From the IMG/VR virus record IMGVR_UViG_3300046010_003304, positions 1 through 33,212 of that record: a stretch of DNA of 33,212 nt. One strand, written 5' to 3'. The notes under the pieces are model-generated. The model saw only the letters and a list, made by a program, of their open reading frames with translations. It was not told where the DNA came from and searched no databases. The stretch is from a virus. A program made the position numbers and the translations under genes. Positions 2,054 through 9,184 of this stretch are shown one piece after another (position 1 is the stretch's first letter; each line of letters starts with the position of its first letter).

Positions 2054-2298
2054 GGTTTCTTCCCTGTGCCCTTGCAGACGGGACAAACGGTGACTATGCG
2101 GCCATCGCCAAGTTTCCCGGTGCCGTCGCAGTTCGTGCACTTGTCAGACGCCGGGGCTGGGGCCATCTCCTGCGACAGCTTCACGCTCATGCGTGCCGTC
2201 TCGCACGCCATGTCGGCAACGATGTCGGGCCGATCGACGGCGGTCGCGTTGACGCAGCCGGCGACGAGGGCCAGGAGGAGGATGCGGGAAAGCCTCAC
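2050..2298 (-). CDS. Small lipoprotein with DnaJ-type CxxCxGxG zinc motif
   Basis: The protein has 82 residues and starts at a GTG (2298) that overlaps the peptidase stop (GTGA), with GGGAGG 6 nt upstream. Residues 1-15 form a lipoprotein signal ending in the lipobox LVAGC, so Cys15 should be lipidated. The C-terminal third holds Cys54-x2-Cys57-xGTG and Cys72-x2-Cys75-xGTG, which resembles half of the DnaJ central zinc domain. A Gly-rich zinc ribbon on a lipid anchor next to a peptidase and small membrane genes suggests an envelope-disruption role (outer spanin or chaperone-like). That function is inferred. Confidence 0.8.
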   Translation of the reverse strand: MRLSRILLLALVAGCVNATAVDRPDIVADMACETARMSVKLSQEMAPAPASDKCTNCDGTGKLGDGRIVTVCPVCKGTGKKP

Positions 2299-3206
2299 AG
2301 CACGCCTCCCGTCCAGTCTGGCAACAGCCTTGGCGGGAAGCCCTGGTAGCCACTCAGGGCGAATGAATCGTCCCCACTGACCATGCGCGTGAAATCCTTT
2401 GCACGCACCCAGCCCGCAGACTTCTGGAACTGCGGCGGCAGGTTCTTATCAACCGTCCCGCCGTAGCAATCCGCCCAGCTGTTCACAACCAAGATGGCGG
2501 GCTCGGGGTTCCATTTGACGCCCGCTGCCATCTGGCAATGCATCCAAGTGCCCATGGGCGACATGTAGCCATCACGCAGCGTCATAGAAAAGCCCATGGA
2601 GCTGCAGATGGCCGTTGGATAGCCCGACTGCAAAGCCTTTGCACAGTCCTCAAAAGACCGAATGAGGGCAGTGCTCTGCACCTTGTGCTTTGCGGCGTAG
2701 GGCTCGAGCTCGTCGGGCACGCCATCGCGGCCCCAGTTCTTTTCGCGTGTGCCGCTGTTGTCGGTGAACCGCTGCCCGCCGTAGTCGATGCCGTAGTGCA
2801 GCGTGCCAAACCTTGTGACAGCCTTGGCGGCAGCGCCCCCGTAGGAACCGTCGCCTCCAGTGTTGCGGCTGCCACGCACCTCGACGCGAGAGAACCCGTA
2901 CACGCTCGCCTCGAGCACACGGCCGCCGTAACTCTCCGTTTCACGGCGTAACAGGATGTCACATGCGGCAAGGATGTCGCACGACAAAGCCCAACCCCAG
3001 CCGACGCAGCTGCCGATTTTCTGAGCGCCACGTTTCCATGCCGGGTCGCATTGCAAGAGGTACTGCCCAAGGAACACGTCTCGGCTTTCGTCCAGCACGA
3101 GATCCGGCCCGGCCTGCGCGAGCGTCGGTCGGGCGAGCGTGGCCAGAAAGTTATCCGTGCCCTGGCGGTCGGGCACGTACCCCATGAGTGGCAGGAAGTC
3201 GGCCAT
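2295..3206 (-). CDS. Papain-like (C1-type) cysteine peptidase, endolysin candidate
   Basis: This 303-residue protein shows the papain signature in order: Gln62 then Cys67 in QKIGSCVGWGWALS, His223 in GTWMHCQMA, and Asn242 in VVNSWADCYGG with the classic NSW. There is no signal peptide. The start is the ATG at 3206, behind GGAGGGG 6 nt upstream. The frame is open further up, but that would overlap the previous stop. It sits between a membrane protein and a lipoprotein and no lysozyme or amidase is visible, so it may cleave peptidoglycan peptides or envelope protein at lysis. A virion-associated peptidase is the alternative. Confidence 0.8.
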   Translation of the reverse strand: MADFLPLMGYVPDRQGTDNFLATLARPTLAQAGPDLVLDESRDVFLGQYLLQCDPAWKRGAQKIGSCVGWGWALSCDILAACDILLRRETESYGGRVLEASVYGFSRVEVRGSRNTGGDGSYGGAAAKAVTRFGTLHYGIDYGGQRFTDNSGTREKNWGRDGVPDELEPYAAKHKVQSTALIRSFEDCAKALQSGYPTAICSSMGFSMTLRDGYMSPMGTWMHCQMAAGVKWNPEPAILVVNSWADCYGGTVDKNLPPQFQKSAGWVRAKDFTRMVSGDDSFALSGYQGFPPRLLPDWTGGVL

Positions 3207-3208
3207 GC

Positions 3209-3814
3209 CTAGCCCCTCCCAATGCCAGCCCACGCTATCGCCTTGCACGCCTCGGCATACGCACGCCGCAGCTCGGGCGTCACCGGCTTCACGTCGAGGC
3301 CGACAACGTCTCCCAGCGCCTTCTCCGTGGCTTCCCGCAGGCCGGCGTACTTGCCAGGCTGGTTACCGCCGAGCCGCCGCCAGGCGATGTCGAGGGCCAA
3401 CACCGTAAACGTGCGAAGGCTGCGGGTATCCGTGAATGCCACGTCGGTGGCGACGGCGTCGCCGGCCACGACCGTGGCGGCCTTGTCCCAGACACTTGCC
3501 CACAAGGCACGATCGGCCGCGTTGGCACCCTTGAGCGCCGCCGCAACGCCCGCAACCTTCGCCTGCAGTTCCACGCTAGGTGCCTCCACGGTGATCGCTG
3601 CGGCCGGCAGGGCACTCGGTAGGTGCGGCAGCTGCACGCCGGTTGCTGCGGCCAGCAGCAACAGCGCCGCGCCCCACCGCATCAGGCTGCCGCCGTTGGC
3701 TCGGAAGGCTTGGGCGGCGCGCTCGGCCGCAGATCGGATTTCCGACCAGTACGGCGCAGCTGCGAGAGCAGCCGCAGCAACGACGCAGCAGGCGCGAAAA
3801 AGAGAGTCATTCAC
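3209..3814 (-). CDS. Membrane protein with two hydrophobic segments
   Basis: The protein has 201 residues from a GTG at 3814 (GTGA overlap with the upstream stop; GAGG 7 nt before). Hydrophobic stretches lie near residues 4-20 (SLFRACCVVAAAALAAAPYW) and 42-60 (LMRWGAALLLLAAATGVQLP). After them comes an Ala-rich, mostly helical soluble domain (about 70-200). A longer frame exists to 3940 but lacks a start that fits the spacing. It directly precedes the peptidase, so it may help peptidase release or anchor it. The family is unknown. Confidence 0.75.
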   Translation of the reverse strand: MNDSLFRACCVVAAAALAAAPYWSEIRSAAERAAQAFRANGGSLMRWGAALLLLAAATGVQLPHLPSALPAAAITVEAPSVELQAKVAGVAAALKGANAADRALWASVWDKAATVVAGDAVATDVAFTDTRSLRTFTVLALDIAWRRLGGNQPGKYAGLREATEKALGDVVGLDVKPVTPELRRAYAEACKAIAWAGIGRG

Positions 3815-4119
3815 TTCGCGGCCTCTGCTTGAAGAAGACAAAACCGAACGAGCGCCTCGCCTTGCGGCGTCTTCAGGATGTCGGCGAGAAGCCGCACCAG
3901 CTGGTCGTCCGCCTGGGCGTTGGTCTTGCTTGCGAGCCATTCCGCGAAGTCGCTCACTACAAGGGATTTCTTGTACGGGTCGATCTCGTTAACAAACCTT
4001 TGGCCGTAGCCAACCAGCGGAGCCCACGCCTGGAGCAACGCCAGCTGTTGCCAGATGTTGAGGTTGGCCCCGTACTTGGCGTATTCGTCGGCGGTGCCCT
4101 GATAGTTCGGCGTGGTCAT
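3811..4119 (-). CDS. Hypothetical helical protein
   Basis: This 102-residue protein starts at the ATG at 4119 with GGAG 7 nt upstream. It is soluble and mainly helical, with a Tyr/Asn-rich opening (MTTPNYQGTADEYAKYGANL) and a Leu-rich C-terminal half (LVRLLADILKTPQGEALVRF). The stop overlaps the next start (GTGA), so it belongs to the same unit as the lysis-like genes. I do not recognise it. Confidence 0.7.
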   Translation of the reverse strand: MTTPNYQGTADEYAKYGANLNIWQQLALLQAWAPLVGYGQRFVNEIDPYKKSLVVSDFAEWLASKTNAQADDQLVRLLADILKTPQGEALVRFCLLQAEAAK

Positions 4120-4172: not shown

Positions 4173-4556
4173 TCACGGGTCGCCAAAGTTGTCCATGAGG
4201 TTTTCCAATGCGTCTTCGCCGCGCTCTTGCGTGTGCTCAATGCGGAACTGCACAAAATCAACCTGCGTGCGGTATTGCCGCGCCGGTTCGTTGCGTCGCT
4301 GCTCGAGGTGCTTGGCTCGGATTTCGGCGCAGGCTTTGGCAATTTCCCGTGGCGTCGGGTCGCGCTGCCGTGGCGGCTTCTTCCTCTGGCTACGGTCTAG
4401 CCGTAACGGCAGCTGCAGTTTGTCGCGCAGGCGAAATAGCTGGTCTTTCGTGACGCCGAGAAACAGCGTCATTTCGGAATAGGTGGAGCCCGAGGCCCAC
4501 ACGCTACGCAGCGTTGCTTGGAACGTCTTGCACGCCGTGCTCACGGTTCCCGGCAT
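4173..4556 (-). CDS. Small HTH protein, GcrA-like fold, copy 1
   Basis: This 127-residue protein has a helix-turn-helix-like N-terminal part (about 15-52), with a Trp, a YSEM helix, LGVTKDQLFRL and a terminal LPLR. That pattern recalls GcrA-type recognition domains, which end in RLGLPxR. A basic linker (RSQRKKPPRQR) and a helical tail follow. The protein at 7741-8076 shares both the LRxVW...RL...LPxR head and the AExRAxHxxQRxxEP tail, so the two look like paralogs. The ATG at 4556 has GGAGG 6 nt upstream and overlaps the preceding gene by 53 nt. DNA binding is inferred. Confidence 0.7.
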   Translation of the reverse strand: MPGTVSTACKTFQATLRSVWASGSTYSEMTLFLGVTKDQLFRLRDKLQLPLRLDRSQRKKPPRQRDPTPREIAKACAEIRAKHLEQRRNEPARQYRTQVDFVQFRIEHTQERGEDALENLMDNFGDP

Positions 4557-5421
4557 TGTCGTCCTCCAGCCAGTGCATAAGCGTTCGCTGCGATGGATTT
4601 AAAAACATCGTCTTTCCCGTGGCGTTTCGGATGCTTTGGTGAAACGTGACGTGCTCGCAGTCGGTGGTGCCGTCGTATGTGCCAGCCAGGTAGGCATCGG
4701 CGCGATAGACGGCCATGCCGCCAAACGCAGACGCCACTTGAATGGGCTCTGACCCAATCGGCGGGAAAAACCAAAAGCCCCAAGCGGCATACCCGTTTTG
4801 GTATTGGTCGAAGTACGTCAGCGGTTGGCCGACGCCACGAAGAGCCCATAGGTCGTAATGACGCCACTCAACATTTTGATTCTCAACCCACTGATACAGC
4901 GACACGCTGGCCATGCCTGCCGCTTGCGGAATGCCTTGCAACCATCCGATGGCGTTGGCGATCGAGTTTGGTTCCCACCCTCCCCACATGTCCCAATCCA
5001 CAACCACGACGTAATCACACTCAGGCGCACACGCCCGCACCCACCGCTGACATGTGTCTCTGTACTCAGCCAGCGCAATGGTGCGGCGGCCGGCAAACTC
5101 CGCCGAGCAATGCGGCCTGCCATTGTCGTGGTAGTGGAACGTCGCCTGGCGGTGCGTGCTGCAAAACTTGGCCAGCACGTCCAGAGTGTTGTCCGTGCAG
5201 TCGTTGCTCTCAATGTGGGATTGCCATTTGCCGCACTGCTCGCCCGCCTGCTTCATCCGGTCGAGGTTTCCAAACAGCTCCCGCCCGCAGTTTCTTGCCA
5301 GCCCGACAAACGCCACTGAAGACCGGCCCATGACCTGGCTGCCCAGTTCTGTCACGTTCCGATACTGCTCGGCGAACGCATCGGCGGGCGTGTTCCACAG
5401 AACAGCTGGCAATTCAGCCAT
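4504..5421 (-). CDS. Glycosyltransferase-like protein with DxD motif
   Basis: The 305-residue protein carries VAFVGLARNC (37-45), HIESNDCTDNT (69-79) and DYVVVVDWDMWGGW (136-149). Asp142 and Asp144 are the likely metal and nucleotide-sugar ligands of a GT-A fold. The pattern of an opening strand, an ESND turn and a VDxDMW motif resembles CAP59-like transferases. It overlaps the family-2 glycosyltransferase upstream by 8 nt, and a methyltransferase precedes that gene, so the three may act together on one glycan or on modified DNA or virion protein. The acceptor is unknown. Confidence 0.75.
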   Translation of the reverse strand: MAELPAVLWNTPADAFAEQYRNVTELGSQVMGRSSVAFVGLARNCGRELFGNLDRMKQAGEQCGKWQSHIESNDCTDNTLDVLAKFCSTHRQATFHYHDNGRPHCSAEFAGRRTIALAEYRDTCQRWVRACAPECDYVVVVDWDMWGGWEPNSIANAIGWLQGIPQAAGMASVSLYQWVENQNVEWRHYDLWALRGVGQPLTYFDQYQNGYAAWGFWFFPPIGSEPIQVASAFGGMAVYRADAYLAGTYDGTTDCEHVTFHQSIRNATGKTMFLNPSQRTLMHWLEDDNAGNREHGVQDVPSNAA

Positions 5422-6181
5422 AGGGCACCTGGCGTTTCAGACAAATGAACTGTTTCACGTCGTGCGGTAGATCCACCGCATCAACAAACTTGCGGACGGC
5501 TGCGTGATACATGCCGGCGTCTGCACCGTCCCTGCCTTGGGCTCCGTAGCCAGCAGGGTCCACCGTGAACACCGCGCCCTTCTTTGGGGCAAACACGCAG
5601 CCGTTTAGCGCAGCCACCACGGCGTAACCGATGGCGTCTGACCACGGCCCCATCAGCCAAAACTTTTGGTCGGCCAACCATCGCAGCACGTCGGCGCGTA
5701 TGCCGCTGCCTATGCCCGTCTCGCTTGCATATGGGTGCGTGCGAATGCGGTGCATCATTTCTTCCGGCCCGAAAGTCACGGGCTCCTGAAATCCGTTGTG
5801 CACCAGGCCGGTGATGTTGTCGTCTGTGTCGGCCACCCAATAGTCGTGGAACACAACTGCAGCGTTCGGGTATTCGTTCACGCTCCCAACCACGCAATCT
5901 GTCAAGGCGTCATCGGCACCCATGCACACGACGTGCGTTCCCAGTAGCGACGGGTACACCTCGGCAGCGGCGGCCTGCCAATCGGCACTTTTCGTGGCGT
6001 GACGAATCAAACGCAACGACGAATACTGGCCGCACATCTGCTTGACGATCTGCGGCGTGTCGTCGGTGCTGGCATCGTCAACGACGACCACTTCGCAGGG
6101 GTTCTGTTCGCATGCACTTCGGACGGCACGAGCAATTGTCCTAGCGTGGTTTCGCACTGGGATGATAACGCTGACGCTCAC
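5414..6181 (-). CDS. Family 2 glycosyltransferase
   Basis: The protein has 255 residues from a GTG at 6181 that overlaps the methyltransferase stop (GTGA), with GGGG 7 nt upstream. It opens directly with the GT2 nucleotide-binding strand VSVSVIIPVRNHARTI, followed by VVVVDDASTDDT (about 30-41) and a GADDAL motif near 85 in the place of the DxD. These are standard GT-A family 2 signatures. It probably transfers a sugar from a nucleotide donor in the cytoplasm. The acceptor could be virion protein, surface glycan or DNA. Confidence 0.88.
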   Translation of the reverse strand: MSVSVIIPVRNHARTIARAVRSACEQNPCEVVVVDDASTDDTPQIVKQMCGQYSSLRLIRHATKSADWQAAAAEVYPSLLGTHVVCMGADDALTDCVVGSVNEYPNAAVVFHDYWVADTDDNITGLVHNGFQEPVTFGPEEMMHRIRTHPYASETGIGSGIRADVLRWLADQKFWLMGPWSDAIGYAVVAALNGCVFAPKKGAVFTVDPAGYGAQGRDGADAGMYHAAVRKFVDAVDLPHDVKQFICLKRQVPYG

Positions 6182-6834
6182 AGTTTCGCCCCAGTGCAGA
6201 TGGCAAGCCGGTAATGGCACATCGCGCCAAACCCTGTGTGCAGCGTCTCATCGTTGAGCCCGAACAGAAACACGTTTCTGAAATACTTCCGCAGCGTCTG
6301 CCGCAGCTGGTCTTCCGTTTTGCAGTTCACGTGCCCGGCCCGGCTCAACTCGCTGGCGTAGGGCTGCGATTCCAAGGAAGGCATGCCGCAGATGAACGTG
6401 CCGTGCTGGCCAATGGCCATGCAGATGTTGCCAATGAATGCTGGCTCCATCTCGGGCCGCACGTGCTCCAGCACGTCGAGCGAGTACGCCGCGTCGAAGT
6501 GACACAGCAGACGATCAGGCCGGTAGCAGACGCCGCGCGTGATGTCGTGCTGTAGCCATACGACGTTCTTGATGCGTCGCTCTCTGGCGTTGGCCAGCAG
6601 CTGCTCATCGGCGTCGATCGCCGTGATGGTGTCGACAGCGGCCGCCACGATCGCCGTGGCCCAACCGTCACCGCAACCCACCTCGAGCACGTTGCCTTTG
6701 CCGGCCAGCATCTTGGACACGAACTTGTAGCGGGCCAGAGTGAAGCCCAGCCGCTTCGGGTCAATGATCCACGTATGCCCGGCCATGGCACCGAGCGTTT
6801 GCGGCGGCGTTTGGTGGCACACGTCCCACGTCAT
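6178..6834 (-). CDS. Class I SAM-dependent methyltransferase
   Basis: The protein has 218 residues. Motif I is VLEVGCGDGWAT (about 49-60). The acidic ribose-binding residue lies in TAIDADEQ (about 71-78), the adenine region in WLQHDIT (about 93-99), and DAAYSLDVLEHV (about 115-126) follows. This is a methyltransferase_11/23 type; it lacks the DPPY or PCQ motifs of DNA methylases, so a small molecule or glycan substrate fits better. The ATG overlaps the RusA stop (ATGA), and glycosyltransferases follow. Confidence 0.88.
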   Translation of the reverse strand: MTWDVCHQTPPQTLGAMAGHTWIIDPKRLGFTLARYKFVSKMLAGKGNVLEVGCGDGWATAIVAAAVDTITAIDADEQLLANARERRIKNVVWLQHDITRGVCYRPDRLLCHFDAAYSLDVLEHVRPEMEPAFIGNICMAIGQHGTFICGMPSLESQPYASELSRAGHVNCKTEDQLRQTLRKYFRNVFLFGLNDETLHTGFGAMCHYRLAICTGAKL

Positions 6835-8080: not shown

Positions 8081-9184
8081 TCACTCCGCTGCCATGGGCA
8101 TGACAACGCCCGTGTGGCAATCCGTTCGCAGGATCACGGCCGACTGCCCGTCCTTGGCCTGGACGCTGACTGTTGGCTCGCCGTCCGCCGGCAGCCCTTC
8201 AAGCCACTGCCGCACGTAACGCGGGTCCAACTTCACGGTGCACGCCGTGCCGGCCTCCACGAGATCGCACGTCACGCTCGACTCTCCGGCCTCGCTCGAC
8301 TGCCCGTGGAGCCACAGCCCCTTGTCAGAGAAGGCAAAGTCGATGCCCCGGCTGGCCTCAGTCGTGACGATCGCCGCCGCCTTCACGCTGGCCAGCAGTT
8401 GCTCGGCAAGCACAGTGGTGGGCTCGCAGTCCAGATCCGGCACCACGTCGCGCCACCGGGGGAAGCGCCCTTCAATGAGCCGGGCCGTGACGGTCGCCGT
8501 GCCCACAGTGGCCACCAGTTCCTTGCCCGTCGCCTCGAGCTGCACCGAACCGTCTGAGTCAGCCGCCGCCAGCCGCGACAGGATCGCCATGACACGGCTT
8601 GGCACGAGCGTGGTGGAATCGTCCACCGCCAGGTCGTGCTCGCACTCCACGAGCGAGAGCCGCCGGCCGTCCGTTGCCACGAAGCTGACCGTCTCGCCTT
8701 TCACTTCGATCAGCACGGCCCCGAGGGCAAACCGGCTGGAGTCATCGTCCGTGGCAAACACAACGCCACGCACAGCACGGCAGAACTGATCCGCCGGCAG
8801 TCTCGTCACAGGCTTCGCGTCGGCAGGCTCCCACATCGGGTATTCGCTGGCGTTCTCGGTGGGCAGCGTCCACGTGCCGCTGCCAGCCTTCACCACGCAG
8901 CTGGTGTCGCCAGGCTGGAGCGTTACCGTGTCGCCCGTGGCTGCCCCGAGGATCTGCGACAGCCTGCCGTGTGGCAGCAGGATCGCGTCCCCGTGGTAGT
9001 CGAGGGCCACGTCGATCCGCACTTCACCGTCCGAGCCTGTGAGCAGACCGTCGCCCAGACGCACGGCCTGGTAGATGGCCTTCGGTGCTCGAGTTGGCAC
9101 GGCTGGCGAGACTGCGGCCAACGCAGACTTCAGGTCGGCAGACGCCAGTTCAATTCCGGTTCTCTTCTTCGTTGCGGTTGCCAT
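8081..9184 (-). CDS. dnaN: DNA polymerase III beta subunit (sliding clamp)
   Basis: The 367 residues match the full length of bacterial DnaN (about 366). The three clamp domains can be followed: the first around 10-115, the second opening with RLPADQFCRAVRGVVFATDDDSSRFALGAV-like sequence (split near 130-158) and containing SFVATDGRRLSLVE, and the third with EGRFPRWRDVVPD near 243-255 and ending at HTGVVMPMAAE. The dimeric ring tethers DNA polymerase and repair enzymes to DNA. No polymerase gene is visible nearby, so it probably recruits the host polymerase. Start ATG at 9184; AAGGG lies upstream. Confidence 0.95.
   Translation of the reverse strand: MATATKKRTGIELASADLKSALAAVSPAVPTRAPKAIYQAVRLGDGLLTGSDGEVRIDVALDYHGDAILLPHGRLSQILGAATGDTVTLQPGDTSCVVKAGSGTWTLPTENASEYPMWEPADAKPVTRLPADQFCRAVRGVVFATDDDSSRFALGAVLIEVKGETVSFVATDGRRLSLVECEHDLAVDDSTTLVPSRVMAILSRLAAADSDGSVQLEATGKELVATVGTATVTARLIEGRFPRWRDVVPDLDCEPTTVLAEQLLASVKAAAIVTTEASRGIDFAFSDKGLWLHGQSSEAGESSVTCDLVEAGTACTVKLDPRYVRQWLEGLPADGEPTVSVQAKDGQSAVILRTDCHTGVVMPMAAE

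Follow-up and report, generated by a model that had tools for sequence, protein, structure and literature searches.

Phage endolysins occur as cytoplasmic enzymes and in N-terminally anchored forms such as the SAR endolysins, and in holin-endolysin-spanin cassettes small membrane proteins and a lipoprotein are encoded beside the enzyme. The CHAP and NlpC/P60 phage endolysins belong to the papain-like superfamily. Cysteine protease domains have also been described in a phage lysis enzyme, the mycobacteriophage LysA (N4 and N5; PMC3314691), where they are reported mostly within an enzyme of three domains, of which one is a further catalytic domain and one serves binding. Furthermore, a papain-clan protease of the C10 type, Bfp3, is carried by Bfgi2, a siphovirus-like Bacteroides prophage with an amidase and a holin of its own, and the authors of that study treat Bfp3 as mobile cargo (PMC2873492). 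Among the matches listed for planctomycete phages and papain-like lysis in the titles and abstracts of open-licence PMC papers, there was no description of a cassette such as the one reported here.

In the present study we have analysed the IMG/VR record IMGVR_UViG_3300046010_003304 from position 1 to 33,212; "the window" denotes this whole stretch of 33,212 nt. It encodes a papain-like cysteine protease, here called C1, within a run of six genes (Table 1). This cassette resembles the SAR and holin-dependent layouts in having anchored and anchorless forms, membrane proteins and a lipoprotein, but differs from them in a papain-type protease, an exported thiol/zinc protein and the lack of a recognised holin or spanin. 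C1 shares with CHAP and NlpC/P60 endolysins the superfamily and the position expected of a lysin, but it lacks their profiles, has a complete papain set and gives protein-cutting fold matches. It is comparable to the LysA N4 and N5 domains as a cysteine peptidase in a putative lysis function for an unusual envelope, although it stands alone with exported partners, and to Bfp3 as a papain-clan protease found on prophages. Its closest solved folds are those of C1A peptidases (xylellain, 3ois, and cathepsin B), which are alike in predicted fold, in the Gln-Cys-His-Asn order and in the NSW motif; C1 is however only 14% identical, has no Pfam C1 match or recognised propeptide, and lies in a phage operon. 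Proteins of uncultured Caudovirales deposited as 'Peptidase_C1' (A0A6J5TCZ4 and others, in BFVD) also have the papain-like fold (E 3e-8), with identities of at most 18%.

Catalytic residues and predicted fold of C1

The preliminary description had placed Gln62, Cys67, His223 and Asn242 of this protein in papain order, and the four residues are found exactly there, as parts of the motifs QKIGSC, WMHC and NSW. The window C1 has neither a signal peptide nor an N-terminal TM segment. In IMG/VR a single-protein query found 36 loci related to the window C1 and a more distant query found 75, partly on the same contigs, while 262 of 295 matches to a C1 pattern gave an alignment (80 kept), so that at least 262 uncultivated viral loci carry the gene. 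The analysis of 33 near-full-length sequences (37 aligned rows minus four partial or interrupted ones) demonstrates that Q62, G65, S66, C67, H223, N242, S243 and W244 are unvarying (33/33). Gln, Cys and His do not change in any of the 156 viral ORFs (280 aa or longer, some contigs being present twice) or of the 17 cellular relatives. The Asn242 position is kept in 155 of the viral ORFs, the remaining one showing a gap, and in 14 of the cellular relatives. Thus, the Gln (oxyanion)-Cys-His-Asn order of C1A peptidases is present and conserved, with Asn replaced by Gln (QSW) in 3 of the 17 cellular proteins (G419, G431 and G341), whose Gln, Cys and His are unchanged. Judged from these alignments, the conservation of the catalytic residues is far beyond chance. 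In one capsid-related record (G436, the record of L308) C1 is split across several frames, and L037 has a stop within the C1 range; both may reflect sequencing error or decay. Long branches meet in the C1 tree, and it was therefore not used to order the chromosomal and phage lineages.

Searches with the C1 sequence in Pfam, PHROGs, NCBIfam and the PDB gave no convincing match, and five C1 queries found none in 50,697 cultured-phage records. The NCBIfam 'amidase' matches were so weak (E 0.0017; 17 bits, the cut-off being 458) that they were attributed to chance. There was no match to the CHAP and NLPC_P60 family profiles, no wall-binding domain was seen in the Pfam scan, and no C1A propeptide was recognised. 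None of 28 C1 members matched the Pfam Peptidase_C1 model at E values up to 1, and C1 is therefore treated as a papain-fold relative, not as a Pfam C1 member.

In the AlphaFold2 model, obtained with 28 sequences (pTM 0.80, mean pLDDT 70), Cys67 opens the helix 67-86 and a beta-rich half bears His223 and Asn242; the loop 60-65, just before the cysteine, is of low confidence. Foldseek comparison of this model with the PDB gave 134 matches at E ≤0.001, with cathepsin B and xylellain on top, and VIA-align superposed it on xylellain with a Z of 17.3 and an rmsd of 3.3 over 232 residues (14% identity). The papain-like fold suggested at first reading is thus borne out by the predicted model, and in the comparison of papain with NlpC/P60 folds that had been recommended the closest solved structures are protein-cutting C1A enzymes, not NlpC/P60 or CHAP. 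Among the viral models of BFVD, the uncultured Caudovirales proteins mentioned above were the best matches. According to the model, C1 is a papain-fold enzyme with a complete catalytic set, outside current family models.

The cassette and its genomic setting

The six genes follow the order c21, c11, C1, c49, c26, c29. Neighbouring genes overlap by 4 nt at four of the five junctions, c21/c11 and C1/c49 among them, and are 2 nt apart at the remaining one. Because the 168 viral loci include contigs present twice, they were clustered at 90% identity into 47 C1 clusters, and clusters with too little flank were omitted from the counts. Upstream of C1, c21 was found in 43 of 43 clusters and c11 in 42 of 43; of the 42 clusters assessed downstream, all have c29, 40 have a zinc-knuckle ORF and 38 have c26. 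The same neighbours were found again in 28 records chosen for carrying C1. In a set picked by capsid and not by C1, consisting of 15 of 59 capsid-related loci (the longest records or those of other interest), C1 is present in 6 of 6 records longer than 29 kb and in 2 of 9 shorter ones. By this capsid-homology sampling C1 is a core phage gene.

Table 1. Positions of the cassette genes and of other features (window coordinates unless a locus or record is named)
Feature	Position	Strand	Description
c21	3811-4119	minus	About 102 aa, no TM; first conserved cassette gene; start ATG by eye
c11	3209-3814	minus	GTG start; two hydrophobic segments, then a helical domain of about 110 aa
C1	2295-3206	minus	Papain-like cysteine protease, 303 aa; ATG at 3206, stop 2297-2295
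c49	2050-2298	minus	82 aa, predicted exported lipoprotein; zinc knuckle CxxCxGxG...CxxCxGxG
c26	1709-2053	minus	114 aa, single TM segment at the C-terminus; possible membrane component
c29	1437-1712	minus	91 aa, one N-terminal TM segment, then predicted coil
Laminin_G_3 protein	about 650-1411	minus	Lectin-like; next downstream of the cassette
Glycosyltransferase-like and methyltransferase genes	4504-6834		Just upstream of the cassette
DNA polymerase III beta clamp	8081-9184		Phage-borne
Peptidase_S78 prohead protease	29165-29797		Gene separate from C1
C1 cassette without visible phage genes	L155:8740-12020		
C1 cassette without visible phage genes	L157:8846-11292		
C1 cassette without visible phage genes	L264:11780-14907		G403
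C1 cassette without visible phage genes	L265:10442-13881		G194
QSW-type cellular C1	L262:10438-11373		
QSW-type cellular C1	L260:14835-15830		
QSW-type cellular C1	L261:13530-14528		
Split C1	G436:2896-3810		Record of L308

Predictions for c11, c49, c26 and c29 agree with the lysis-like neighbours, membrane proteins and a lipoprotein, that had been noted around C1. No holin family was matched by 58 cassette proteins in Pfam and PHROG, and one of them matched PF04226; by its layout c29 is a holin or spanin candidate. The N-terminus of the c11 protein carries an anchor, a signal or a lipobox in 14 aligned relatives, and its domain can be aligned between the cassettes of phages, prophages and chromosomes. 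The helical domain (window 3212-3616) gave a confident model (pLDDT 91) with no Foldseek match at E <1, and the best VIA-align Z of 5.8 is no evidence of kinship. It is possible that c11 takes the place of the propeptide, which was not recognised in C1; that it acts as a propeptide-like inhibitor of C1 is speculation.

A hydrophobic stretch at the N-terminus was found in all 40 knuckle ORFs and a strict lipobox-like motif in 29 of them. In the Pfam scan the window c49 has no thioredoxin domain but a zinc knuckle alone; a DnaJ-like match was weak and below the Pfam cut-off, and nothing beyond the knuckle was assigned to c49. Elsewhere an exported thioredoxin takes the place of the knuckle protein or is joined to it in one gene: Pfam Thioredoxin (PF00085) matches 5 of the 58 cassette proteins (best E 4.6e-9) and PHROG thioredoxin 4 of them. 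L155 and G431 encode an exported cysteine-knuckle protein fused to a thioredoxin-like domain, and G236 and G403 have CxxC proteins at the place of the knuckle gene. The preliminary description had not recognised that several genes are conserved together in this cassette, among them an exported zinc-knuckle or thioredoxin partner and the universal helical c11.

Family searches found in the window HK97-type head genes, an S78 protease, an integrase, RecT, RusA and a sliding clamp. The genomes are mosaic, since 27% of the window aligns with G001 (the record of L003) although the C1 of G001 is 94% identical. The clamp (PF02767, E 1.3e-16) is present in 24 of the 28 C1-carrying records, and one glycosyltransferase-like cluster was found again in 24 of 28; the glycosyltransferase-like and methyltransferase genes of the window perhaps have a role in surface or DNA modification. 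Other phage proteins, among 76 scanned, gave single matches to trypsin, to a Tet_JBP oxygenase and to a TET-associated glycosyltransferase, a possible sign of DNA base modification in some of these phages. The Laminin_G_3 gene probably serves as a tail fibre or in adsorption and was taken as outside the cassette; its other weak matches, below cut-off, were read as a shared lectin fold.

In the window group C1 is placed between glycosyltransferase and fibre-like genes, and its position ahead of the latter would suit a virion protein, that is an entry or maturation protease acting, for instance, on a surface layer during infection. We consider this very unlikely. C1 is not a Peptidase_S78-type prohead maturation protease adjoining portal and capsid genes, that protease being encoded by a separate gene (Table 1). 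Moreover, the N-terminally anchored relatives and the lipoprotein and thioredoxin partners fit the envelope rather than virions, and no fibre gene was recognised beside C1 in prophages of the Blastopirellula marina type.

Planctomycete carriers and the search for another lysin

A pattern scan of 84,980 species genomes found four C1 relatives, all of them in Planctomycetota (Blastopirellula marina DSM 3645, a Fimbriiglobus MAG and two other Planctomycetota MAGs). A C1 profile search was positive in 11 of 392 planctomycete genomes and a broader profile in 18 of 392, with 13 below E 1e-46; five weak cellular matches (E 2e-10 to 7e-4) were left out. The planctomycete host that had been proposed is supported independently by these cellular relatives. 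The cellular set comprises 17 loci, 14 strong ones together with L155, L157 and L158, and 13 of the 17 adjoin phage genes, as judged by family matches (57 prophage proteins, 25 of 28 families listed) and by inspection of translations by eye. By hydropathy an N-terminal TM segment is present in 10 of the 17 cellular C1 proteins and in 0 of the 156 viral ones. The gene order in the B. marina prophage is a small protein, a TM protein, a c11-like signal-anchored protein and a C1 with an N-terminal anchor, which are followed by a TM protein, an exported thioredoxin (WCPYC), a small exported protein and then the terminase genes.

Around four of the 17 cellular loci (L155, L157, G194 and G403) the sequence that was read contains host genes and no phage gene. 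Each of these cassettes includes an anchored helper, and three also have a neighbour that is thioredoxin-like or of the CxxC type; they are possibly domesticated or gene-transfer-agent release modules. These loci would also agree with an exported, non-lytic system, serving envelope remodelling in non-lytic release, superinfection exclusion or lysogenic conversion, which the bacteria would use too. Chronic, non-lytic release is reported for another planctomycete phage (PMC10945688), and the C10 papain-like protease bfp3 is described on a Bacteroides prophage with ordinary lysis genes (PMC2873492). We nevertheless regard such a non-lytic function as improbable: with its presence in all six long capsid-related records and its fixed operon C1 is not accessory, and the carrier phages would then lack any recognised lysin.

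Neither lysozyme nor amidase nor CHAP-type lysin had been visible in the window at first, and Pfam scans supported this. Matches of 48 window proteins fell into 23 families, none muralytic; 19 further entries (six from the window) gave 31 families, with none muralytic among the 25 listed; and 76 proteins (cluster representatives), for which all families were shown, gave none. The scanned pool was made of 134 proteins from the window and eight records, with ORFs below 60 aa and two piece-crossing ORFs excluded. Amidase_2, SLT, Peptidase_M23, Phage_lysozyme, NLPC_P60, Amidase_3 and CHAP were each found in 0 of 39 records, and every control search was positive in reference genomes. A muralytic gene elsewhere in the genome, which together with C1 in virions would have spoken against the initial reading, was found neither in these 39 records nor in four with exact terminal repeats of 99-127 nt, which on account of those repeats look complete. 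In complete genomes C1 is the sole recognised candidate for wall or envelope degradation; a muralytic enzyme of unrecognised fold among the unannotated phage proteins is possible.

The lack of another recognised lysin in 39 of 39 records also fits a true endolysin, in which C1 would cut the peptide cross-links of peptidoglycan as NlpC/P60 and CHAP enzymes do, and the thiol partner would only keep its cysteine reduced. Papain-like folds are described as common in wall hydrolases (PMC10318531), planctomycetes are reported to have peptidoglycan (PMC4432640), and some BFVD relatives are deposited as 'Peptidoglycan binding-like', 'N acetylmuramidase' and 'Endolysin'. This explanation seems unlikely to us, as the closest solved folds belong to protein-cutting C1A enzymes with the full Q-C-H-N set, C1 has no wall-binding domain, and peptidoglycan genes are reported to be largely dispensable in one planctomycete (PMC10632474).

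A proposed role in host release

In genomes where no lysin is recognised, a core operon encoding a protease (exported or exportable), an anchored helper, an exported thiol protein and small membrane proteins is best read as a release cassette. Thus, we propose that C1 is the effector of a cassette by which phages of Planctomycetota open the host envelope for release, a proposal that we hold to be, by a small measure, probable. In the initial suggestion of C1 as a lysin, the papain-like fold, the setting like that of a lysis cassette, the lack of a recognisable lysin and the planctomycete host are all supported, whereas lysis of the host or the cutting of a wall polymer is a conjecture. We infer the release role, the substrate of C1, the identity of the holin and the roles of the partners from sequence.

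In this mechanism the small TM proteins would breach the membrane in the phage group of the window and so let C1 into the periplasm, whereas in some of the prophages its own N-terminal anchor would bring it there. The membrane- or lipid-anchored c11 may then hold it in the periplasm, and the exported zinc-knuckle or thioredoxin partner may keep it reduced or help to open the disulfides of the substrate. C1 would then cut protein or peptide links of the envelope, leading to the opening of the cell. As the substrate we favour a cysteine-rich, disulfide-stabilised protein layer, the peptides of peptidoglycan being possible as well. Planctomycete walls have been described as cysteine-rich, disulfide-stabilised protein (PMC3035269; also PMC2754498), and transposon data are reported to class most peptidoglycan synthesis genes of P. 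limnophila as non-essential (PMC10632474). Planctomycetes are also reported to possess peptidoglycan, and lysozyme to break their cells and sacculi, so that these hosts would be susceptible to a muralytic lysin (PMC4432640). The thiol helper fits a disulfide-bonded protein layer, and it also fits an enzyme which merely needs a reduced cysteine.

A fixed cassette in place of a wall-cutting enzyme suggests that these phages open the bacterial cell in a manner hitherto undescribed. In its fullest form, which we put forward tentatively and hold to be less likely than not, planctomycete phages would lyse by 'reduce and cut', a papain-type protease and an exported thioredoxin or zinc-knuckle protein acting on a disulfide-stabilised protein layer and not by cutting peptidoglycan, and some planctomycetes would retain the cassette chromosomally for their own purposes.

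Whether protein, peptidoglycan or both bear the load in planctomycetes has been argued for decades, and the target of phage exit is a natural probe of the load-bearing layer. Blastopirellula marina DSM 3645 is a named carrier of the cassette. If C1 cuts the peptides of peptidoglycan, it would represent a new endolysin family; if lysis by proteolysis is true, it would point to the structural layer and provide a tool to open planctomycete cells. In either reading, a conserved module present in at least 262 viral loci and unrecognised by Pfam and PHROGs gains a testable function.
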